64,000 bases of DNA from Aegicerativicinus sediminis (GTDB taxonomy: Bacteria > Bacteroidota > Bacteroidia > Flavobacteriales > Flavobacteriaceae). Positions 1,924 to 19,234 of this stretch are shown in pieces. Position 1 is the first letter of the stretch. Each line of letters opens with the position of its first letter. Under the pieces are notes generated by a model, which saw nothing but the letters and a program-made list of their open reading frames with translations, had not been told where the DNA came from and did no database searches. The stretch lies in contig NZ_CP064295.1 of NCBI RefSeq assembly GCF_015476115.1, positions 3,466,001 through 3,530,000 on the forward strand, written 5' to 3'. The position numbers and the translations under genes were made by a program.

Positions 1924-1949
1924 GTCGGGGTGGCAGGATGCCAACCTTC
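1924..1949 (-). repeat. tRNA-Pro 3'-end direct repeat, candidate island attachment site (left)
   Basis: The first 16 bases, GTCGGGGTGGCAGGAT, are identical to 19159-19174 at the 3' end of the intact tRNA-Pro gene, in the same orientation. Extended to 26 bases the match is 23/26; beyond that the rest of the tRNA is absent. Elements that integrate into a tRNA 3' end leave one intact tRNA and one 3' fragment at the far end, which is the pattern here. I infer this is the left attachment scar of the 1.9-19.2 kb island. No recombinase gene is visible nearby, so the site may be inactive. Confidence 0.65.
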
Positions 1950-3093: not shown

Positions 3094-3850
3094 TATGGCA
3101 AGACAGACGGGTATCATCAAATTAAGAGGTACGATTGGTGATATTTCATTTTACAAAAGTACTGATGGACATTTGGCTCGCGCTAAGGGCGGCGTAGAAG
3201 CTGAACGAATTGCAAATGATCCAAACTTCCAAAGGACCCGTGAAAATGGGTATGAATTTGGACGAGCCGGAAAAGCTGGTAAAGTAATTCGAAATGCTAT
3301 TAGAATTCTTCTCCAAAACGCTAAGGATAAACGTGTTGTTAGTAGACTTACCAAAACCCTAGTGGCAGTTACCAAAACTGACGAAATTAATGAAAGGGGA
3401 GACCGTACAGTTCAAGATGGGGACTTAATCCTCTTAGAAGGGTTTGATTTTAATTTAAATGGTAAATTGGGTGCAACCCTTTATGCCTCTTTCCAAAATG
3501 CCTATAACAGAGTTTCTGGAGCAGCTACCGTGTCAATGGATCCTTTTTCACCCACCGTTAGAATTGCAGCTCCATTAGGCACAACCCATTTTAAGTTGGT
3601 ATCTGGAGTTGCTGAATTGGATTTTGACAATGAATCTTCCAATTTTGAAACGGACGGAACAGCAATTTTACCATACTCTGCACCTGATACTGCAGCTATT
3701 TCTCTATCTGCTTCAATTACGCCGAATTCCGGATTACCGGTTATTCAAGTATTAGGAGTGGAGTTTTATCAAGAAGTAAATGGGCAGATGTATCCATTGA
3801 AAAATGGAGCTTATAATGCCCTGGCCGTGGTGTTGATTGACCAGGTATAA
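3094..3850 (+). CDS. conserved Bacteroidota protein, phage-like cassette gene 1
   Basis: I choose the ATG at 3094 (MARQTGIIKLRGTIGDISFY); the frame opens upstream at 3050 but the extra residues are not family-like. The 252-aa product has a strongly conserved-looking basic N-terminus (GTIGDISFYKSTDGHLARAK, RTRENGYEFGRAGKAGKVIR) and a beta-rich C-terminal half. Homologues are common in Bacteroidota genomes and often sit directly before a DUF5675 gene, as here. The stop codon overlaps the next start (TAATG), showing translational coupling. No enzyme motif is visible. It could be a phage-derived structural or DNA-associated protein; function is not established. Confidence 0.75.
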
Positions 3851-4296
3851 TGGAATTTATACTTTTTAGGGATTATTTCGCAGGGGGTACCAATGGTACC
3901 CTCTTTTGCAATGGCAACTTTATTTGTTTTACCATAGAACTTCCGTGGGAAGGAAATCGTAAGAATATTTCTTGTGTCCCAGAGGGCAGGTATGAATTGT
4001 TCCCTAGATTCTCTAGCAAGTTTGGAAACCATCTATTGGTAAGAGATGTGCCTGGACGAAATTTTATCCTTCTTCATGCTGCAAATAATGCAAAACAAGA
4101 TTTACGCGGCTGTATTGCACCAGTACACATTTTGAACGGCATTGGCAAAGGTTTGCAATCCAAAGAGATGTTACAACGCATATTATCAATAAGCCACCAG
4201 GCTTTTGAAGAGAAAATTACTGTTTCATTAACCATTTTATCTACCAATTATGACACTATTAGAACGCTTTACGCACCCAACACCAAGATTTTTTAA
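3850..4296 (+). CDS. DUF5675 family protein
   Basis: A 148-aa protein beginning one base inside the previous stop (TAATG). It carries the DUF5675 signature: TNGTLFCNGNFICFTIELPW, then a conserved PEGRY, VPGRNFILLHAANNA and LRGCIAP. The His of LLHAANN and the Cys of RGCI, spaced about 13 residues apart, recall the His/Cys pair of YkuD-type L,D-transpeptidases, but that link is my inference. No signal peptide. It is coupled to gene 1 of the cassette and overlaps the holin-like gene downstream by 47 bp. The order suggests a lysis or cell-wall-targeting role, but no function is established for the family. Confidence 0.8.
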   Translation: MEFILFRDYFAGGTNGTLFCNGNFICFTIELPWEGNRKNISCVPEGRYELFPRFSSKFGNHLLVRDVPGRNFILLHAANNAKQDLRGCIAPVHILNGIGKGLQSKEMLQRILSISHQAFEEKITVSLTILSTNYDTIRTLYAPNTKIF

Positions 4297-4465
4297 AACC
4301 TTACGTAATATTGGAATTGCCTTAGCCACAGCAGGCGGAGCAATTATAGCAGCGCCCATTGCATTACCAGGAATTGTTGTGACCATTGCTACCTACATGA
4401 CGGTGGCTGGAACCGTTGCTACGGCTGTAAGTCAGGCGGTTGTGAGTGACCAGCCTAAGAATTAA
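4250..4465 (+). CDS. holin-like small membrane protein
   Basis: A 71-aa protein with a charged N-terminus (MTLLERFTHPTPRFFKTLRN) followed by two hydrophobic, glycine/alanine-rich segments at about residues 21-43 and 45-64 and a short polar tail (SDQPKN). Size and two-helix layout fit class II holins or pore-forming peptides. Its start lies 47 bp inside the DUF5675 gene in another frame, so the three cassette genes are translationally linked. A clear terminator follows at 4497-4531. Holin is an inference from topology and neighbours; it could equally be a small membrane anchor. Confidence 0.65.
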   Translation: MTLLERFTHPTPRFFKTLRNIGIALATAGGAIIAAPIALPGIVVTIATYMTVAGTVATAVSQAVVSDQPKN

Positions 4466-4671: not shown

Positions 4672-5790
4672 ATGGAGCAGAAGATCATTAAGTTTCTACG
4701 ATCTAAGGATTTTAAATTTATAGAAGAAGTTGGGCAGGGTGGAACCGGAAGAACCGTTTTATTAGAGGATGAAATCATCAATGAACGTTTTGTTTGTAAA
4801 AAATATTCACCTTATTACCCAGAGACTAAAACTTTGTTTTTTGACAATTTTAAGGAAGAAATTAAACTGTTGCATCTGTTATATCATCCTAATGTGGTTA
4901 GGGTTTTTAATTATTATTTATATCCCGAGGAATTCACTGGTTATATATTAATGGAATATATAAAAGGATGCTCCATAGATAACTACCTAGAGGAGAACCC
5001 TGATAAGCTCAATTCAGTGTTTGAACAGACCGTCGACGGTTTTTTGCATTTAGAAAAGAATAAAATTTTACACAGAGATATCCGACCTGAAAATATCTTG
5101 GTTAACAATGATGGAATTGTAAAAATAATTGATTTCGGATTTGGTAAAAAAATAGAATTTGACAAGGATTTTGATAAAAGCATTTCTCTAAACTGGCGTT
5201 ATTCGTTACCAAAAGATTTTAAGGCTACAACTTATGATTTTAGCACTGAAGTGTATTTCTTAGGAATGCTATTTCATGAGATTATTCAAGACTACAATCT
5301 ACAGGATTTTGCATTTGATAATGTTCTTAAACAAATGACCATTAAAAGGAAGGAAGACAGAATATCCTCCTTTTTTGATTTGAAAAGGTCCATGATTGAA
5401 AAAGGAGAGTCCTCTATAGAATTTACCAACGATGAAAAATCTATATATGACAATTTTGCCTCAGGATTAGAAAAGATTTTTGGAGGTATTTATGAGGGTG
5501 CCGTTTACAGAGATGATATACCTACTATTTTAAAACGTCTACAAGATCTTTATAATGTTTCTTTATTGGAGACTTATATCCAAAATCCAAATAAACTTAC
5601 TAACTGTTTCGTAAATGGTAAATATAGGTACACAACCTCCTATAAGTTTCATGTTTCATACCTTAAAAAATTTATTGCATTCTTTTCTGGTTTATCTATT
5701 GAAAGAAAAAAGATCGTTTTGAATCATTTATGGCAGCGGATAGACAAAATAGAGCGTATACCAGATTATGATGACGATTTACCATTTTAA
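4672..5790 (+). CDS. Ser/Thr-type protein kinase, first gene of defence-like operon
   Basis: A 372-aa cytosolic kinase without a membrane segment. The kinase core fills about residues 14-240: glycine loop GQGGTG (21-26), the VAIK-type lysine in FVCKKY (~43), helix-C glutamate in FKEEI, catalytic HRD at 134-136, metal-binding Asn141 and DFG at 154-156. All catalytic residues are present, but the usual HRDxK lysine is Arg (HRDIRPEN). Residues ~245-372 form a helical C-terminal part I do not recognise, ending acidic (DYDDDLPF). The next gene starts 15 bp downstream, in a three-gene operon with an ApeA-type HEPN protein and a DUF3883 nuclease. Substrate unknown; phosphorylation of a partner or a host protein during infection is inferred. 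Confidence 0.9.
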   Translation: MEQKIIKFLRSKDFKFIEEVGQGGTGRTVLLEDEIINERFVCKKYSPYYPETKTLFFDNFKEEIKLLHLLYHPNVVRVFNYYLYPEEFTGYILMEYIKGCSIDNYLEENPDKLNSVFEQTVDGFLHLEKNKILHRDIRPENILVNNDGIVKIIDFGFGKKIEFDKDFDKSISLNWRYSLPKDFKATTYDFSTEVYFLGMLFHEIIQDYNLQDFAFDNVLKQMTIKRKEDRISSFFDLKRSMIEKGESSIEFTNDEKSIYDNFASGLEKIFGGIYEGAVYRDDIPTILKRLQDLYNVSLLETYIQNPNKLTNCFVNGKYRYTTSYKFHVSYLKKFIAFFSGLSIERKKIVLNHLWQRIDKIERIPDYDDDLPF

Positions 5791-5805: not shown

Positions 5806-7182
5806 ATGATACAACCCTTTCAACTAAAAGGTCAATGGTTTTTACCTGGAAGTAACGATACCATTTCGGGATTACTTAGATTCAGTCCCGGAGAACCAAT
5901 TCTTTTGGAGCTTTATGGAAGTTTAAGCCGGGAGTTTTCAGATAATTCGACAGTTGAGATAATACTTGGATTGACCGAGAAAGGTAAAATTACCTTAGTC
6001 AACTGTTATCCAATCAATCAGAATACAACGAATGGGCTGCTTTTTGTGAACTATGAGCCAACCCATATTTTTAAAGGGGTTTATTTTAATACCATCCACA
6101 GCCTCCATTTTAGGAAAGTTAGTTTTGATCTTTTTAATTTTTACAATTGGTTTTCCATTTCTGGTCGATCTTTTGAATTTTCCGCGCCGAATCAACATTT
6201 TAGTTTAGGTTATGAGCGAATGCCAGCGATTTCATTTATACTGAAAAGCGATCTTAATGGGGAAATTTCATTTGGAAATTCACTTTCAACTTCCCTAAGA
6301 ACAAACTCAACAGAGATTCGGGAATCGTTAAGAATTACATTTAATTACACCCAAAAAACCAAATTTCTTGAGATACTTAAGGATATTGATGTTCTTACAA
6401 AATTTGTGACATTGATGTCCTTTGAGCAAAGCTACCCCACTTCTATACAGTTTATGGATCCTGATTATAAGGAGGAGTTTATGGGCCCGACAACTACAGC
6501 AGTAGAAAAACCAATTGGATGTTTTTTTAAGGACCGACTATTTAATCCTGCTCATTCCAGAAAAACTCCAAAAACATTTTTTTTAGATTATTCCTCCGTT
6601 TCTTCAGGCTTTCCAGGGCTTATACAAAAATGGTATTCTATGAATCAGGAAATGCCTGAAATTTTTGATCTAGTTCTAGACCATTTTAACAATAGAGGTT
6701 ATTTCAAATACCATAAATTCATGGAATGTGCCAGAGCTATTGAGAAATTGCATGGCTATTTATTTAATTCTACCAGAATACCAATAGAAAAACATCAGGC
6801 ATTGGTGAGTAATATTTTAACAAAAGTGGACCTCAAAGATGATCCTGAAAATGAGAATTGGTTACGAAATATTCTTCGCCATAATGACCCCTTTTTATCC
6901 CAGCGCATTTATGAAGTCATTGAAACTTATACCAATTCCTATATACAACAACATATTAAAAAGGCTAAAAATTTTGGACATAGGGTGACTGCAAGCAGGA
7001 ACTATTATACCCATTTTTCAGAGGAAAGCAAGAAACGTGCTGAAGACGGTTTAAAATTATTGATAACAACTAGAAAATTAAGAGGAATAATTATATCGGC
7101 TTTGCTTACAGAATTAGGAATAGAAAAACATATAATAGAAAAAGGATTGCAGGATCATTTAATTATTCCTGATACTAAATAA
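5806..7182 (+). CDS. ApeA-type HEPN anti-phage protein
   Basis: A 458-aa protein. The N-terminus (FQLKGQWFLPGSNDTISGLL, residues 5-24) matches the opening of the ApeA N-terminal domain, which continues as a beta-rich region to about residue 260. The C-terminal ~150 residues are helical and contain RNYYTH at 398-403, the R-N-x3-H RNase motif of HEPN domains. ApeA proteins are known abortive-infection effectors that act through their HEPN domain. Length agrees with the family. It begins 15 bp after the kinase and ends 13 bp before the DUF3883 gene, so the three are co-transcribed. ApeA is known as a single-gene system; a kinase and nuclease in the same operon is unusual to my knowledge. Confidence 0.88.
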   Translation: MIQPFQLKGQWFLPGSNDTISGLLRFSPGEPILLELYGSLSREFSDNSTVEIILGLTEKGKITLVNCYPINQNTTNGLLFVNYEPTHIFKGVYFNTIHSLHFRKVSFDLFNFYNWFSISGRSFEFSAPNQHFSLGYERMPAISFILKSDLNGEISFGNSLSTSLRTNSTEIRESLRITFNYTQKTKFLEILKDIDVLTKFVTLMSFEQSYPTSIQFMDPDYKEEFMGPTTTAVEKPIGCFFKDRLFNPAHSRKTPKTFFLDYSSVSSGFPGLIQKWYSMNQEMPEIFDLVLDHFNNRGYFKYHKFMECARAIEKLHGYLFNSTRIPIEKHQALVSNILTKVDLKDDPENENWLRNILRHNDPFLSQRIYEVIETYTNSYIQQHIKKAKNFGHRVTASRNYYTHFSEESKKRAEDGLKLLITTRKLRGIIISALLTELGIEKHIIEKGLQDHLIIPDTK

Positions 7183-7195
7183 TAGTAACAATATC

Positions 7196-8455
7196 ATGAA
7201 TTTAGAAGACTTACGCGACGCACAGGCGGCCTTTCTTAAACAAATTTCTACGGTTACAAACAATAGGAAGGAAGCCCATGAACTAAGGAAACGATTTGTA
7301 GCTTATTATACAGAAGATCGAATACGGGACATGGACAAATTTCATTATGCCATTGGCAATGAGCAGCCGGACAAAGGATATAACTTTTGTTATACACTTG
7401 AACGCAAATTGGATGTTTTAGGCAGAATCATTGGATCTACCTCGGCAAAATTTGGTTTGTATTATGGGAGAACCAAAAGTGATCCAGAAATTAAATACCG
7501 GTATACTAAAAAGTTTGGGACGAATACGGAAGAGGCTTTTGATGCAATAAAACAGTCTTTATTGGATTTGATTATAGCAGGAAAAGATGGCGATTTGGAG
7601 ACTTTAGTTAAAAATCCACATTCAGACATGTTTAAGGGGAAAATTCTGAGCACCTATTATCCTGAACGGTATTTGAATGTCTTTTCTGATGACCATTTAC
7701 AGTATTATTTGGTGCAATTGAATTTAGATACTGAGAAACTCTATTATTCTGACCCTATCATAAAACGGGAGGCTTTATTGGATTTTAAAAACCGTGATGA
7801 AATTATGAAAGAATGGAGTACCGATAATTTTGCTTATTTCCTATATAGGGTCTATCCTGGAGCTCCGGTGATGAAGGATGGCAAGTTGGTACCAAATCGA
7901 AATTTACATGGGGTAATTGATTTTCCGTGGCAACCAAAGCCAGAATTTGTGGATCTCGCTATTGCACCTTTACAAGTACCATCCAATAGAAGGGAACCGA
8001 GGGGATTGCCTAAAGAAAATCCGGATTATGAGAAGGAGGCTAGGTGGCTTAAGAAATTAGGTGATAGAGGAGAGAAACTTGTCATTGATATGGAGAAAAA
8101 ACGATTGGAGGCCTTAGGTTTAAAACATTTGGCTGACAAGGTTGAAAAAATTACAAGTGATGCTGTTGGCTATGATGTTAGATCCTATAATGAACAAGGT
8201 GAGGGGTTGTGCATTGAGGTAAAGACCACCTCCAATAAACTGGGTATGGCAAATTTCTATCTATCATCCAATGAATTGATTAAGGCCAAAAAGCTTAACA
8301 ATTACTTCGTGTATGTGGTATATGATATTTTGTCTAAGAATCCCAAAGTTTGGAAACTGGCAAATCCATTTAATCCAGAACATGAGCATGTGCACTTGAC
8401 ACCCGTTAATTATAGGGTTCAAATAAACAACCATGGATTGGGGCGGGAAACATAG
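7196..8455 (+). CDS. DUF3883 domain protein, probable Mrr-like nuclease
   Basis: A 419-aa cytosolic protein. The N-terminal ~250 residues are unassigned (MNLEDLRDAQAAFLKQ...). The C-terminal ~130 residues carry DUF3883: LGDRGEKLVIDMEKKRL (288-304), GYDVRSY with Asp327, and CIEVKTT with Glu341 and Lys343. This gives the E...D...ExK pattern of PD-(D/E)XK restriction-like nucleases. DUF3883 proteins are common beside defence genes. It is the last gene of the kinase-ApeA operon, 13 bp after ApeA. The N-terminal part may sense a signal or bind a partner. Nuclease fold is well supported; substrate is inferred. Confidence 0.85.
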   Translation: MNLEDLRDAQAAFLKQISTVTNNRKEAHELRKRFVAYYTEDRIRDMDKFHYAIGNEQPDKGYNFCYTLERKLDVLGRIIGSTSAKFGLYYGRTKSDPEIKYRYTKKFGTNTEEAFDAIKQSLLDLIIAGKDGDLETLVKNPHSDMFKGKILSTYYPERYLNVFSDDHLQYYLVQLNLDTEKLYYSDPIIKREALLDFKNRDEIMKEWSTDNFAYFLYRVYPGAPVMKDGKLVPNRNLHGVIDFPWQPKPEFVDLAIAPLQVPSNRREPRGLPKENPDYEKEARWLKKLGDRGEKLVIDMEKKRLEALGLKHLADKVEKITSDAVGYDVRSYNEQGEGLCIEVKTTSNKLGMANFYLSSNELIKAKKLNNYFVYVVYDILSKNPKVWKLANPFNPEHEHVHLTPVNYRVQINNHGLGRET

Positions 8456-9520
8456 GAATAAACCAGTAAGGATGAAGGTGGATTGCAACTACTATTTTTT
8501 TGACAAAAGACAATCTTTTGATTGCTGGCGCAGAAGGCTGTCAAGTTTATTGGAAAAAATTTCCCATAGGGAGGGGTCGATGGATTAGAAAATTTTTTCA
8601 AAACCAGAGGCTTGAACTTTATTGCCGTGAGGGCTGGACTAGGGAAGCCAACTACTTTAGATGTCTTTTTCAAAAAATAGCAGGATTTAGTGAGCGGGCC
8701 TCGCGAGGCCCTGCGAGCGGAGCAAAGGTGGTGTGGTTGTTAACGTGGAGCGTTTACCACAGCTACGTGAAACGCGGGGGTGGCGCAAGGCGATAGCCGT
8801 GTTTTTGCACCAAAGGCTAAAACACAAGTGTGTAGACTAGTTTGAGTGTTTGGGTTTGTTAAAAGATGATTGGAGGGCGATTCTAAAAATAAAGGAGTGG
8901 TTTGTAGTATACACTCTTGTGAGGAATCTAAAAAAATGGTTGTTCCAATAAACTTATCCTTAAAAGTAAATTTAAGTAGGATAGGAGGAGAAAGGAAAGG
9001 CACAACGATTTTAGGTGGCGTATAAGCAAAAACTGTGACGCCCCCAGCCTGAAGCGACCCGCAGGCGAGCAAAATTATGAAACAGCGGTTACCCCCGCTA
9101 TTAAGAGGCGAAGCCAACATTTATGGGGAAAGCCATTTATGGCTTGGGGGTAACAGTAGCTGTGGGTGAGGAGGGAAACGACTGTGTGAAACAAAACAAC
9201 CGGAAATGGTGTGCGAGGAGGTGACACCGCAGCACCCATTGTAGGGGTATGTGCAAGTTTTGTAAATGTGATATGGATTTGATTTTTGACCCAACTTGCA
9301 GCTATGGTTTGTGGAACAAAAGGAGATGACTTACGAACACCTTATAACCTGTTTTTTGAATCTAAACTTTTGAAGTTATGTAAAAAAAATATTTATCTTT
9401 AAAACCCTTCCTAATTACAAGATAATCAGCACATTTTATTAAAATTTTTTAATGTTTAAATGCTTATAAACGCATCTAACACTGTCATTATTTGTATTTA
9501 ATTAAACCTAATTTTTTATT
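8456..9520. other. long intergenic region with GC-rich, highly structured core (~8690-9305)
   Basis: No convincing gene lies in these 1,065 bp; frames on either strand lack family features. The core is much richer in GC than its surroundings (36 of 60 bases at 8701-8760 against 15 of 60 at 4861-4920). It contains many inverted repeats: a perfect 16-base palindrome GGGCCTCGCGAGGCCC (8696-8711); GTGGTTGTTAACG paired with CGTTTACCAC around 8732-8760; GGTTACCCCC near 9087-9096 paired with GGGGGTAAC near 9146-9154, enclosing AAGCCAT-TT-ATGGCTT; and TGCAAGTT (9251-9258) paired with AACTTGCA (9293-9300). This suggests a structured RNA or a folded DNA element. I do not recognise a known RNA class. 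Confidence 0.5.
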
Positions 9521-11011
9521 ATGAAACATTTTTATTGCACCCTTGTTTTTACTATTACGCTTAGCTTATTTACAGGAGATTTAATTGCACAATCACCCCC
9601 AGATACAATCTCCAAGATAACTGACAGCAAGGTTCCTTTTACACCCGGGGCCTTCGATAAGTATCTTATTGACCAACTTTCCTTCCTAATATTGGGTAAA
9701 GGGAACCTTCAAACTGGTTTTGGATTTGAACTCAATAAGGAAAAGACCGACCTAAAATTTAATGGACTTCTTTTAAACTCTCCAAAAAGCCTTTTAACTG
9801 CTGAAGCTACATTTAAAGCAAAAGAAGGATTCTATTTTTTTGATGAGGAAAAGGGTGGAAGCCAAGCGAGCATTAGTTTGGTTTACCATGTATTGTTTGG
9901 AAAAAATGTAAGCAGTTTTGTAAAAAGGGATGAGCAGGATAGAAAACTCCTGATGGTTTCTATCTACAATAAACTTTGGAGAACGGAACTACATTATCAC
10001 TATTTAAAAACTATCCTTGATTCTTATAATTTGTACAAGGAAAACGCCAAAGTTAAGTCGACTTTGGATACCTTAAAAAAGCAGTATAATTTAATAACCC
10101 CCGCTTTGCCCAAATTTGATATTCTTCAACCAGACCAGGCTAAAGGGGTGGATATAAAAGCCTATTTGAAAAATGGTAATCTTGGACCCCTAGAAATAGT
10201 AGATCATGACCAAACCATCAAAACCATAGAGAGTTCTATGTATGACTTGGAAAAGGTATTAACCGATTTTAAAGCCAAAGAAACTTATATATTGAAGGAT
10301 CTAGAAAAGGAATTGTTTGGGTTAGAACGCACTTATACAAATCCTTCGGCCATGGGAACGCATCTAAATTACCTTTCTTTTGAAGGTTATTATGAACGTG
10401 AAAGCCTCAACTTATTTCATTTTGATAATACTCTTAGTTTTGGTAAGATGTTTCAAGAGGAGCGCAGAGATAATTACGGATTGAAAGCTTCTTTTAACTA
10501 TTATTATTTAAAGGGACCTAAAGGATGGAAATGGGTACCAAATAATGGCTATATTAAGATTGGAGGGTTTGCTGGCAGAGGTACCAATTTTTCAAAATTG
10601 ACCCAAAAGGAACTTGAAACTGTTTCAGTAATTGGTGAAGATGTAAATGGCAACAGCATTGAATTAAAAGATACCAAGAAAGCTTATTCGGGAGAAACAC
10701 CTTATGTCTATGGATTTAAATATGGGTTATTTGCCGATGCCTATGCTTTGTTTTTTAAGCAAAAGTTTGGGGTTTTTGGTGAGATTAAGTACGAAAATAT
10801 TTCGTTTGGTGATGAAACTGGAGTTGACGATATTGATTTGTTGCCGCTTCGATTGGGAATACTCTACACATTTAAATCTAAGGAGAAGGATGCCACTTTT
10901 TTGGTAGCGCGGATTTTTATGGATCGTACGGATTTAGGATTATCTCCTAACAAGCCTGATAATGATCTTAGAATTGGATTTGGAGTTGGGATACCTATTA
11001 ACTTTAGATAG
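9521..11011 (+). CDS. exported protein with central helical region and C-terminal beta-barrel-like domain
   Basis: A 496-aa protein with a signal peptide (MKHFYCTLVFTITLSLFTGDLIAQ, about 24 residues). Residues ~60-130 look beta-rich, ~150-270 are charged and probably coiled (IETIESS-type and LTDFKAKETYILKDLEKELF segments), and ~290-496 return to amphipathic, aromatic strands ending GFGVGIPINFR with a terminal Arg, as in outer-membrane barrels. I do not recognise the family. It stands alone between the structured non-coding region and a decayed gene and is followed by a good terminator. An outer-membrane location is inferred from strand pattern and C-terminus. Confidence 0.7.
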   Translation: MKHFYCTLVFTITLSLFTGDLIAQSPPDTISKITDSKVPFTPGAFDKYLIDQLSFLILGKGNLQTGFGFELNKEKTDLKFNGLLLNSPKSLLTAEATFKAKEGFYFFDEEKGGSQASISLVYHVLFGKNVSSFVKRDEQDRKLLMVSIYNKLWRTELHYHYLKTILDSYNLYKENAKVKSTLDTLKKQYNLITPALPKFDILQPDQAKGVDIKAYLKNGNLGPLEIVDHDQTIKTIESSMYDLEKVLTDFKAKETYILKDLEKELFGLERTYTNPSAMGTHLNYLSFEGYYERESLNLFHFDNTLSFGKMFQEERRDNYGLKASFNYYYLKGPKGWKWVPNNGYIKIGGFAGRGTNFSKLTQKELETVSVIGEDVNGNSIELKDTKKAYSGETPYVYGFKYGLFADAYALFFKQKFGVFGEIKYENISFGDETGVDDIDLLPLRLGILYTFKSKEKDATFLVARIFMDRTDLGLSPNKPDNDLRIGFGVGIPINFR

Positions 11012-13015: not shown

Positions 13016-13405
13016 TTATGTAAATAAAACTAATAAAAACAGGATGATAATAAGCAAAATCAGCAACCACAACAACCAATTATTAAATTTGTTGGTGTCT
13101 TTTTCATGGCATGGTTTACACCAGACGGTTGGTTCTGTACCTGGTTGATTCACCACTATTTCTGGAGTTTTTTCGGAGGACACCTCAAAGGTGTAACTAC
13201 CGTCTAAATTATCTGAAATAGATGAGGTTAACTCGGTTTCAGCATTTCCTTTAATATCTAATTCATTGGCTCTACCCGGACCAAAATGATTACCAAAAGC
13301 ATCTTTAGGAATCAATGTAACTTTCCATCGGTTTTGTCCAAGGTCTGTATAGGATATGTCTGATTTGCCTGGATCTATTTTTACATCTACATACATTGAC
13401 CACAC
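13016..13405 (-). CDS. small tail-anchored protein coupled to the trypsin/VWA gene
   Basis: A 129-aa protein without a signal peptide. Residues 1-~90 look like a small beta domain (YTDLGQNRWKVTLIPKDAFG, LDGSYTFEVSS), similar in feel to Ig-like fold repeats. A CxxC pair (WCKPCHEKD) follows, then a single C-terminal hydrophobic helix (~109-129, LLWLLILLIIILFLLVLFT), so it is probably tail-anchored in a membrane. Its ATG lies 19 bp inside the upstream trypsin/VWA gene in another frame, implying coupled translation. It may anchor or regulate that protein. Family not recognised. Confidence 0.65.
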   Translation of the reverse strand: MWSMYVDVKIDPGKSDISYTDLGQNRWKVTLIPKDAFGNHFGPGRANELDIKGNAETELTSSISDNLDGSYTFEVSSEKTPEIVVNQPGTEPTVWCKPCHEKDTNKFNNWLLWLLILLIIILFLLVLFT

Positions 13406-15933
13406 CGCTTCCCGAGTGGCTTTACAATGATGGCCATAGGTTGCAACCGCCCTGAATGAAATAGACCCTGAGCGTTGAATAAGTCTTTAATAGGATTGCC
13501 GAAAATGCCGTCTGGACCCATGGAACCATCTTCGTGCACACCGTCATCAAACAATTTAAAATTAAGGGTTTCATAGTCAACCAACTTACCCGCTTGGTCG
13601 TCCTTAATTTTAATTAGGCTCGCATAGATTGGCGGTATGGTATCCCCATCTATTTGTAAGGTAGATTGCATGCCTTTATTAACCAAAATGTTACCTGTAC
13701 TTTGTAATGGCCTTTTAACAAATAACTCTACAGAAGCATGGCTTGGGCTTACATTGGTATCATAAGACAAACGTACTAATGGGTTATAAGAATTGCCAGT
13801 ATAGCTGAATTTCTTTTGAGAAAGCACATGCAATTTTGGACCACCTTTAGCTATAACATTTACAAAATAATTTAGGTTATGGGGGGCAGGCGTAAACTCT
13901 CCTTGACTTGGCCTAAACACATTGACCTGCCAGAGACCGTCTTGCTCACCATCGATAGGTAAAGTAAGACGTGCATAAACCCAGGTTTTACCCCTATCGG
14001 TTATGACATTCGCATGGGAGAGTGATATAGTATTACCATTAGGTGTTGAAATATTAAATGTAAGTTGGCTATCGACCCTATCCCAACCCACTACGATGGT
14101 TGCTGACTCTTCGCCACAAATATTAAATGGCATAGGTTTAGCCTTATTTGTGGTACGAGGCAAGTGGAAATCTGGATCCATAAGGAAACCCGATTCGAAA
14201 ATATTCCCAAAGCAACTCGCAAAGAATTTTTTCAGCGTTAATTCGTCTTGTGCCACGGTGTAACTGCCATCATGAAGAATTGCCAGACGCGCAAGCGTAG
14301 GTCCGTCTAAATTGGATGCATCTCCATAACCTACAATGCAGAACCTGCGGTTGCCAAAGGAAGCTTCCACATCCTCAATCATGGGAGGAGTGTTTTGCAT
14401 ACCATCGGTAAGCAGTAGGATAACTTCATCTTTGGTAGCACTGCCACTGAATTGACTAATGGCGGTTGACAAGCCACCGCCTATAGTGGTGGTGCCATTA
14501 GGAATGAGTCCACCAACGATTCCCCCTGAATATGGCGCGGGACCGATAAGGGTATTTTTATTAGCATTGTTATTGGGTGCAAGACCATGATCTAAATTTG
14601 GTGCATTTGCGAAGGATACCAGTCCGGTACGATTACCTCCACCTTGTTGAACCATTGAAATAAACAGGGAAGCAGCATCTCTAGCCTCCTCAATTTTTGT
14701 TCTACCCGTTTGGGTAATTTGTGCCATAGAACCTGAACGGTCAATGACAATCATTACGTCTCTATTAACAGTTGGAGGAGGGGGCGTGGTACCAATTATT
14801 TTTAACAAGGTAGCCGTAGGAAAATAGGAGAGGGTACTACTACAATTACCAAGATTATCCCTTCTTCCACCAGCAGATAGAGTTCCTACAACATTACCAA
14901 GTTTATCATATAGGCCTGAACCTGAACTACCACCGGCAACATCGATACTTATCCGTATGCTATTGGTTGACACGGAAAGCACACTAAAAAAGTCACCTGT
15001 TTTAGGCGAGGCTTTTTTAACCGCACCGTTGGGATGGTGTATGGCAAACAATTCTTCTCCTGGGGCGGGAAGATCTGTCCTCATGGGTAGGGGTGAAATT
15101 CCTGAGGTACCATTTGAGATATCGATACGAAGGATTAAATAATCTTTACCATCTGTGGTAAAATTGTATTCCACAACTTCCAATACCTTAAATATCTTTG
15201 GTTCGTAGGTTGCGGGTTTATTGCCAGAGGCGTCCGTTTGGTACCCAAGAACTACGGAGGCAGATAAGGCTCCAGATAGATCGGCTGGGGAATTGGTGCC
15301 AGAAATTGCCAGACAATGACCTGCAGAGAAGACGAGATCGTCTGCAATTAAGGTAGCGGAACAGGTAGATAGGTGATCGCCATGGGCCGAAATGATCATA
15401 CAAGCAGCTTTGCGTGCGGCATCTCTTAAGTCATTTGGGAGGGTAGCAGCATTCTTCCATTTGGGATCGGAAAAACAGGTTGTTGCATTGGCTCCACAAA
15501 TCCAATACGTATCGTAAACCGGTTCTACATAAGGATTGGTATGTAAAAAAATGTCGCAGTTGGTAAAGGTGCAGGGATTGGCACCTTCATGAATTCGGTG
15601 TGCACGTCCGAAACCAACAAGTTGAACCCCACCCGTTGCCGCTCCATCTTGGATGTAGTTTATGGGAATGTTTCCTGACGGGAGTGCGTTTACATTGATT
15701 GGTCTGGTCCAGAATTCGCTACCTGAAGCACTGTTAAAAACGTCTTTTCCATAACCTAGATTTACCTCTAAACGGTTGTTGGCAGGGAAGGAGGCATTGT
15801 TAAAATGAAGGATAACAAAACGAGAGGGCTGTCCAGGTTCCTGGGGGTGGTCATAATTAATGGAGTTGATCGGATGGTTTGGCCCAATACCAATAGGAGT
15901 AATGGTAATCAGTCGGCCAATGTTGTGTGACAT
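13387..15933 (-). CDS. trypsin-like protease plus von Willebrand A domain protein
   Basis: An 848-aa protein. Residues ~170-380 carry a chymotrypsin-fold protease: SAGHC with His206, KDYLIL with Asp264, and GGSSGSG with the nucleophile at Ser337. Residues ~390-580 form a VWA domain with an intact metal site (IDRSGSMA, ~397-403; LLTDGMQ). Residues ~600-848 are beta-rich and resemble Ig-like repeats. The first ~150 residues are a beta domain containing paired cysteines (CTFTNC, WICGAN, TTCF). There is no N-terminal signal peptide, unusual for a trypsin-like enzyme. It overlaps the tail-anchored gene by 19 bp. In accessory regions trypsin and VWA domains occur in conflict systems; here that role is inferred. 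Confidence 0.85.
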   Translation of the reverse strand: MSHNIGRLITITPIGIGPNHPINSINYDHPQEPGQPSRFVILHFNNASFPANNRLEVNLGYGKDVFNSASGSEFWTRPINVNALPSGNIPINYIQDGAATGGVQLVGFGRAHRIHEGANPCTFTNCDIFLHTNPYVEPVYDTYWICGANATTCFSDPKWKNAATLPNDLRDAARKAACMIISAHGDHLSTCSATLIADDLVFSAGHCLAISGTNSPADLSGALSASVVLGYQTDASGNKPATYEPKIFKVLEVVEYNFTTDGKDYLILRIDISNGTSGISPLPMRTDLPAPGEELFAIHHPNGAVKKASPKTGDFFSVLSVSTNSIRISIDVAGGSSGSGLYDKLGNVVGTLSAGGRRDNLGNCSSTLSYFPTATLLKIIGTTPPPPTVNRDVMIVIDRSGSMAQITQTGRTKIEEARDAASLFISMVQQGGGNRTGLVSFANAPNLDHGLAPNNNANKNTLIGPAPYSGGIVGGLIPNGTTTIGGGLSTAISQFSGSATKDEVILLLTDGMQNTPPMIEDVEASFGNRRFCIVGYGDASNLDGPTLARLAILHDGSYTVAQDELTLKKFFASCFGNIFESGFLMDPDFHLPRTTNKAKPMPFNICGEESATIVVGWDRVDSQLTFNISTPNGNTISLSHANVITDRGKTWVYARLTLPIDGEQDGLWQVNVFRPSQGEFTPAPHNLNYFVNVIAKGGPKLHVLSQKKFSYTGNSYNPLVRLSYDTNVSPSHASVELFVKRPLQSTGNILVNKGMQSTLQIDGDTIPPIYASLIKIKDDQAGKLVDYETLNFKLFDDGVHEDGSMGPDGIFGNPIKDLFNAQGLFHSGRLQPMAIIVKPLGKRCGQCM

Positions 15934-19135: not shown

Positions 19136-19160
19136 GATTGAAATTGATTTCTCAATTTGT

Positions 19161-19234
19161 CGGGGTGGCAGGATTCGAACCTGCGACCTCCTGCTCCCAA
19201 AGCAGGCGCGATGACCGGGCTACGCTACACCCCG
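19161..19234 (-). tRNA. tRNA-Pro (anticodon TGG)
   Basis: On the minus strand the 74 nt fold as a complete cloverleaf: acceptor CGGGGTG/CACCCCG, anticodon stem CCTGC/GCAGG with loop TTTGGGA (anticodon TGG), and T-arm with GGTTCGAATCC. CCA is not encoded. Its 3' end is the intact copy of the sequence repeated at 1924-1949, making it the likely integration target of the island. Confidence 0.97.

Follow-up and report, generated by a model that had tools for sequence, protein, structure and literature searches.

The stretch of DNA analysed here (the window; 64,000 nucleotides from Aegicerativicinus sediminis) carries, in this order, genes for a CL8 protein, a DUF5675 protein, a small holin-like ORF, a protein kinase, ApeA and a NOV_C protein, then a conserved inverted-repeat box that we call box 1 and a non-coding unit that we call the block (Table 1). 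Box 1 comes directly after the defence operon and to the left of the block. A first-pass annotation, made from the letters alone, had placed a GC-rich, structured segment at 8690-9305; we set the unit at 8680-9352, a slight shift, because its ends are conserved among relatives. In the window these ends are prolonged by a run of A and a run of T.

Table 1. Positions within the window of the block, its helices and the surrounding island features
Feature	Position	Strand	Basis
Left copy of the 16-bp tRNA-Pro 3'-end repeat	1924-1939	+	sequence repeat
CL8 protein, 251 aa, recurrent left neighbour	3095-3847	+	ORF clustering; no Pfam or PHROG family
DUF5675 protein	3850-4296	+	PF18925, E 6.8e-29
Small hydrophobic ORF, 71 aa, similar ORF in L131	4250-4465	+	'holin-like' is our reading
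Protein kinase, cargo	4672-5790	+	Pfam Pkinase; PADLOC mad6 and PD-T4-6 families
ApeA with HEPN domain, cargo	5806-7182	+	Pfam, PADLOC
NOV_C protein (DUF3883 of the first-pass annotation), cargo	7196-8455	+	PD-T4-1 family
Box 1, second conserved inverted-repeat box, TCAAG..CTTGA, TTGGAAAAAAT..ATTTTTTCAA	8539-8615	+	strict pattern
Structured non-coding unit (block)	8680-9352	+	ends GCAGG (8680) and CCTGT (9348-9352)
16-base perfect palindrome GGGCCTCGCGAGGCCC	8696-8711	none	exact position
Predicted long-range helix H2, 5' strand (CCTGCG..AAAGGT)	8708-8729	+	subtype A and B folds; sequences side by side
H2, 3' strand, with most conserved core AGCCTGAAGCGACCCGCAGGCGAGC	9046-9070	+	DNA search, pattern, side-by-side sequences
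H3, 5' strand (compensated helix, 12 pairs)	9082-9097	+	RNAalifold and covariation counts
H3, 3' strand	9145-9163	+	RNAalifold and covariation counts
Hairpin, 15-nt arms, 80% complementary (9252-9266/9286-9300)	9252-9300	+	inverted-repeat pairing
tRNA-Pro(TGG); 3' end 19159-19174 is the right repeat copy	19159-19234	-	tRNA match

The block is without a credible gene, as had been said of some 600 bp here: the longest ORF inside it (126 aa, antisense, 8740-9120) gained no support, and the alignments of relatives contain single-base indels within the conserved part. The GC excess noted earlier is also present, with a GC content of 0.462 for the unit vs 0.381 and 0.326 for its 1-kb flanks and 0.356 for the window, rising to 0.60 at 8701-8760. 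The palindrome lies exactly where it had been described, the pairing seen near 9251-9300 is the hairpin of Table 1, and that seen near 9085-9155 is helix H3, the best-supported stem of the block. As RNA, 8680-9320 folds to -196.3 kcal/mol vs -182.1 (sd 6.1) for 20 dinucleotide shuffles (z -2.3, with 0/20 shuffles as low), which is above chance and modest for a single sequence. Perfect short hairpins are not over-abundant, 41 with four-base loops being found in 21 diverse copies of the block vs about 50 in shuffled sequences.

The suspected connection to mobile elements is borne out by the position of the window copy, which sits in a mobile tRNA-Pro island bordered by a direct 16-bp repeat. Like other tRNA-anchored islands, this one lies between the tRNA and a displaced copy of the tRNA 3' end; a weaker copy of the 16-base repeat is present at 1750, and a 15-base repeat pattern with at most one mismatch matches only the 1924 and 19159 sites in the 4.09-Mb genome. 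This geometry fits integration at the tRNA-Pro 3' end and would give an island of ~17.2 kb. The window island differs from tRNA-anchored islands in having no integrase among the 18 island ORFs scanned. In genome G001, of the same genus, a 49-bp piece of tRNA-Pro lies 10.7 kb from the tRNA-Pro, on the wrong side for simple integration. To the right of the block, 9521-11011 encodes a 496-aa protein with no Pfam, PADLOC or PHROG match, present in 2/40 genomes including its own; a gene pair at 11687-12891 matches PDC-M21 (A and B), a candidate defence system, with an AbiEii-like domain in one of the two; and an 848-aa protein with trypsin-like peptidase and von Willebrand A domains is encoded inside the island at 13387-15933.

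Copies of the block are scattered over Bacteroidota. A DNA search with the block matched 5 of 60 genomes, the window's own genome holding one copy, and a 25-base degenerate pattern of the core found 100 stretches in the genome collection, nearly all of them from Bacteroidota among the matches listed. When scored with a profile of the 3' part, most of the pattern copies gave strong matches and the non-Bacteroidota ones proved to be mostly chance; the matches in Streptomyces (L016), an actinobacterial MAG (L045), Hylemonella (L057) and a cyanobacterial MAG (L079), with no or weak profile scores, were rejected as chance. No match to the block was found in plasmid and phage collections at E 1e-5, and the profile did not support the sole IMG/VR pattern match (L107; E 0.76). 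A covariance model of the family (R1), built on 24 sequences, recovered 9031-9191 of the window at E 5.2e-28, the window copy itself being in the model, and had matches in 31 of the 299 genomes searched from the window's family and in 26 of 395 from its class. Carrier genomes in these two groups have 1-3 copies and no arrays were seen; judging from these searches, the block is a patchy, accessory element. Its length in 21 diverse copies ranges from 550 to 878 bases, and across the scattered Bacteroidota relatives the fold, rather than the letters, appears to be conserved. Crocinitomicaceae, Marinoscillum, Marivirga and Dysgonamonadaceae have copies that are 97-99% identical along their entire 736 bases. 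The lineage of Marinoscillum was checked as Cytophagales, and we take Crocinitomicaceae to belong to Flavobacteriales, Marivirga to Cytophagales and Dysgonamonadaceae to Bacteroidales; because near-identical copies occur in these three orders, the block moves between orders. A Cytophagales-type copy is present on two contigs of a Rickettsiales-labelled MAG (L041 and L056), which may be misbinned or have received the copy by transfer.

The ends of the unit are discrete, in that it remains intact between unrelated flanks (33 distinct left and 24 distinct right flanks). They also pair with one another, as in GCAGGTAAA/TTTACCTGC, GCAGGTAAT/ATTACCTGC, GCAGGTTATA/TATAACCTGC, GCAGGAAAA/TTTTCCTGC and ACAGG../..CCTGT. 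Complementary ends were found in 68 of 116 copies by a search that demanded 6 pairs, so that the count is biased and the examples are illustrative; the 48 copies without complementary ends under this rule were left out of the end analysis. Cytophagales-type copies (e.g. L029) have a GTGCGNTGGGAAAA-like motif in the same orientation in both flanks.

The search for compensating changes in homologues that the first-pass annotation had proposed found them in H3, in two sequence sets. RNAalifold, applied to a sequence-only alignment of 24 type I sequences, recovered H3, many of its pairs showing double changes. All 287 scorable cells are paired, both sides have changed at 8 of the 12 pairs (50 cells), and the covariation score is 0.471 vs 0.157 when shuffled, with 0/500 shuffles reaching it. 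The second set has 28 sequences, of which 27 are additional copies taken from other loci, some perhaps from genomes overlapping the first set; here 95.5% of 336 cells are paired, double changes occur at 10 of the 12 pairs (64 cells), and the score is 0.505 vs 0.209, again reached by none of 500 shuffles. Controls in which H3 was slid along the alignment had at most 54.6% (24 sequences) and 48.7% (28 sequences) of cells paired. A further measure, counting further pair types, was unexceptional, being reached by 22/500 and 182/500 shuffles in the two sets. By these alignments, H3 is strongly compensated and is the firmest evidence for structure in the block.

Beyond H3 covariation is weak, with 21 of the top 120 covarying pairs 90% paired in a full-length alignment that is under-powered (effective number 7.7, with two clades dominating). 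The H2 strand is nearly invariant and hence weakly tested by covariation; the window pair A8726-U9050 in this predicted helix is G-C in most relatives. Type II copies, in which the core and 5' domain are common and the 3' part is different, were excluded from alignment A2. Outside H3, the proposed structure rests on consensus folds and sequence conservation.

The genes around the block fall into recurrent modules and variable cargo. We clustered ORFs around 102 copies (a set including the single viral pattern match) and the window, with Pfam names given where a representative was scanned. DUF6266 occurs in 45 of the clustered loci, DUF6943 in 25, CL8 family proteins in 13 and Piwi (Argonaute) proteins in 14, and the constant companions across loci are DUF6266/DUF6943 or CL8/DUF5675/holin-like modules. 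Module genes account for 58 of 371 ORFs near the block vs 0 of 261 ORFs when 20 control regions are taken from the same genomes. The linkage is one-sided, as DUF6266 occurs without the block: it is the commoner of the two (57 vs 31 of 299 genomes), a hidden block was absent at 12 of 12 chosen DUF6266 loci without one, and 0 of 19 CL8 regions from other genomes had a block by profile. The strict box 1 pattern was found with 21 of 116 copies, always in + orientation and always left of the block, and in none of the 20 control regions.

On both sides of the block the cargo varies, and includes metal resistance, Argonaute, restriction-modification and other genes. A cluster of metal-binding/copper-transport type, named by reading the sequences, occurs in 24 loci, and a Pfam scan of a set of family neighbours returned CusB-type, efflux and E1-E2 ATPase domains. 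Among the PADLOC matches near the block are Argonaute, PglX, restriction-modification methyltransferases and AbiL, and those in controls are mostly helicase families such as DpdF and GajB; 232 families were matched near the block vs 81 in controls (in each case a random sample of 130 proteins out of a larger set), tallies for which we give no p value because families, not proteins, were counted. Argonaute genes in the 14 loci (L009, L030, L044, L086, L106 and others) lie beside the block on its right side, sometimes as the first gene after it.

This variability bears on the suggestion, made in the first-pass annotation, that the block could be a defence guide, decoy or trigger RNA, which we consider here as a role tied to the ApeA operon next to it. 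Adjacency in the window speaks for such a role, but there is no constant association with ApeA: in relatives the block adjoins metal-resistance, Argonaute and restriction-modification genes, and cargo occupies several positions, that of the window operon being flanked by the DUF5675 module and box 1. Because other genes adjoin the block in relatives, the defence operon looks like exchangeable cargo, and we consider an ApeA-specific role very unlikely.

A non-autonomous, MITE-like insertion element with no host function would account for the terminal inverted repeats and the unrelated flanks. We nevertheless give this explanation little credence, since insertion elements of this kind have many copies per genome and the block has few, no target-site duplication was apparent by eye in the flanks of the block, the unit contains a compensated helix, and DUF6266 or CL8 keeps it constant company, being present in 35 of 39 family-search loci and nearly always to its left. 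(These 39 loci overlap partly with the clustered ones; L245, scoring under 60, was excluded.)

The main rival to an RNA is a folded DNA site, that is, an attachment, transfer-origin or cargo-insertion landmark that would work single-stranded or as a cruciform and have no RNA function. The sharp complementary ends of the block, the cargo on both sides and the lack of a promoter signal (below) agree with such a site, and because recombinase genes adjoin some copies the RNA reading is open to doubt: a tyrosine-recombinase-like cluster (CL9, named by reading the sequences) occurs in 10 loci, in most of them immediately to the right of the block. In L275 (1781-8064), an array of orphan RHS C-terminal cassettes appears to have received a unit of XRE, primase, Int, Int and block, which the 13-bp repeat TGTGGGGCTTTTT borders on both sides (gene names again read from sequences). 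Long imperfect palindromes, perhaps an attachment site, lie near CL8 and recombinase modules in L131 (~5880-5935) and L275 (~7735-7840). A length of more than 600 bases is unusual, however, for recombination or transfer sites in DNA, most of which are shorter; most copies have no recombinase nearby, carrier genomes hold few copies and no arrays, and fold energies favour one strand. Integron attC sites, with short R/L core boxes and cassette arrays, were compared with the block on size and lack of arrays only. We regard a DNA site as a possible explanation, if a less than probable one.

Both fold energy and base composition favour the + strand. Consensus folds of the whole unit reach -353.2 on the + strand vs -305.4 on the - strand (18 sequences), and those of the second subtype -398.8 vs -346.8 (10 sequences); the purine content of the + strand is 59%. 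Other strand measures are neutral: wobble cells (G-U : A-C) number 2:0 in alignment A2 and 7:10 in A7, or 9 vs 10 overall, and leave the strand undecided, a GNRA tetraloop test gave 1 against 0, and an own-versus-other test of the 5'/3' duplex gave p 0.003 equally on both strands. Matches to a Bacteroidota-type promoter consensus rose above the shuffled level on neither strand. In 80 of 90 loci the first ORF to the right lies on the - strand and faces the block; to the left, the first ORF is a - strand one, pointing away, in 57 of 81. Right-hand ORFs facing the block suit an independent + unit with convergent genes and also leftward read-through, which is made plausible by the predominance of - strand ORFs on both sides. 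The block could then be an untranslated or intercistronic segment of a leftward operon, a reading that the undecided wobble pairs also allow. We think it improbable, given the fold energies of both subtypes and the window itself, where both neighbours are on the + strand.

Comparison with known RNAs agrees with the earlier statement that the block matches no known class. Rfam searches returned two tRNAs only from the whole window, and no match either from 8450-9520 at E up to 1 or from the loci of six relatives; group II intron models and the curated covariance models of known families including GOLLD, ROOL and OLE were likewise without a match in these searches. Large structured RNAs are few in bacteria, and several of the known ones are phage-borne and without a clear role. 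GOLLD, ROOL and OLE are described in PMC12286853 as large ornate RNAs of hundreds of bases with an elaborate fold and a poorly understood function, GOLLD and ROOL being carried with phages or prophages. The same source gives GOLLD a conserved 3' part and a less conserved 5' part, to which the block is rather similar. The block is of a length with these RNAs, one 12-pair helix being compensated and the others predicted; it differs from them in having no Rfam match and in residing in Bacteroidota islands with DUF6266/CL8 modules, and its status as an RNA is putative. The candidate structured RNAs of Bacteroidetes include 6S-flavo, Bacteroid-trp, Bacteroidales-1, Bacteroides-1 and Flavo-1 (PMC2864571; Weinberg et al. 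2010), and the motifs among those it names that have an Rfam number gave no match in the Rfam searches above, Bacteroides-2 and GUCCY-hairpin being given there without one. The STAXI motif of that source is, like the block, structured and found near integrases and other DNA-handling genes, but is described there as tandem pseudoknot repeats; its comparison with the block by model was through the Rfam scan. We found no published description of the element, a provisional result as most subscription papers lay beyond the search.

The block is one member of a family that has discrete ends, one compensated helix, linkage to gene modules, changing cargo and near-identical copies in different orders, and that in the window lies in a tRNA-Pro island. 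By a narrow judgement, we favour the view that it represents an undescribed family of large structured RNA, presumably transcribed, that forms a scaffold part of horizontally moving Bacteroidota islands. A transcribed large RNA is favoured on two grounds: structured RNAs typically show what is seen here, a compensated stem inside a unit of 670 bases whose ends pair, and the length argument given above speaks against DNA sites. The block would then be one copy of a family of structured non-coding elements of ~550-900 bases closed by a terminal helix, acting as an RNA transcribed in the + orientation and folding into a multibranched body with paired ends. Such an RNA would most likely serve the island, through mobilisation or in a particle or RNP with the module proteins, and not any single cargo system, because block, box 1 and a DUF6266 or CL8 module recur while the cargo changes. 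The family would add a further candidate large RNA, found in several Bacteroidota orders, absent from Rfam and tied to two uncharacterised modules, and the block could serve as a marker by which Bacteroidota islands with defence and metal-resistance genes might be located.

A bolder proposal, which we offer as speculation and consider rather doubtful, would rank the block with GOLLD and ROOL as a large ornate RNA of a new class, at work in Bacteroidota mobile islands that form a family so far unrecognised. The other constant parts of these islands would be an Ig-like CL8 or a DUF6266 protein, together with a lysis-type cassette of DUF5675 and holin-like genes; the RNA and these proteins would act jointly in packaging, export or transfer, and defence and metal-resistance genes would be cargo. 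The structure model of CL8 is confident (pLDDT 91.4), but its matches are middling: the best Foldseek match has E 4.6e-4, the VIA match has Z 7.0 and rmsd 3.2 over 104 aligned positions, and there is no viral match at E 0.001. The matched part is residues 127-250, with C2- and fibronectin-like sandwiches, the N-terminal part being barely tested by this comparison. The DUF6266 model is weak (pLDDT 69.5). After CL8, in both L131 (4001-5603) and the window (3095-4465), come DUF5675 and small holin-like ORFs, an arrangement resembling a lysis-type cassette without a phage.
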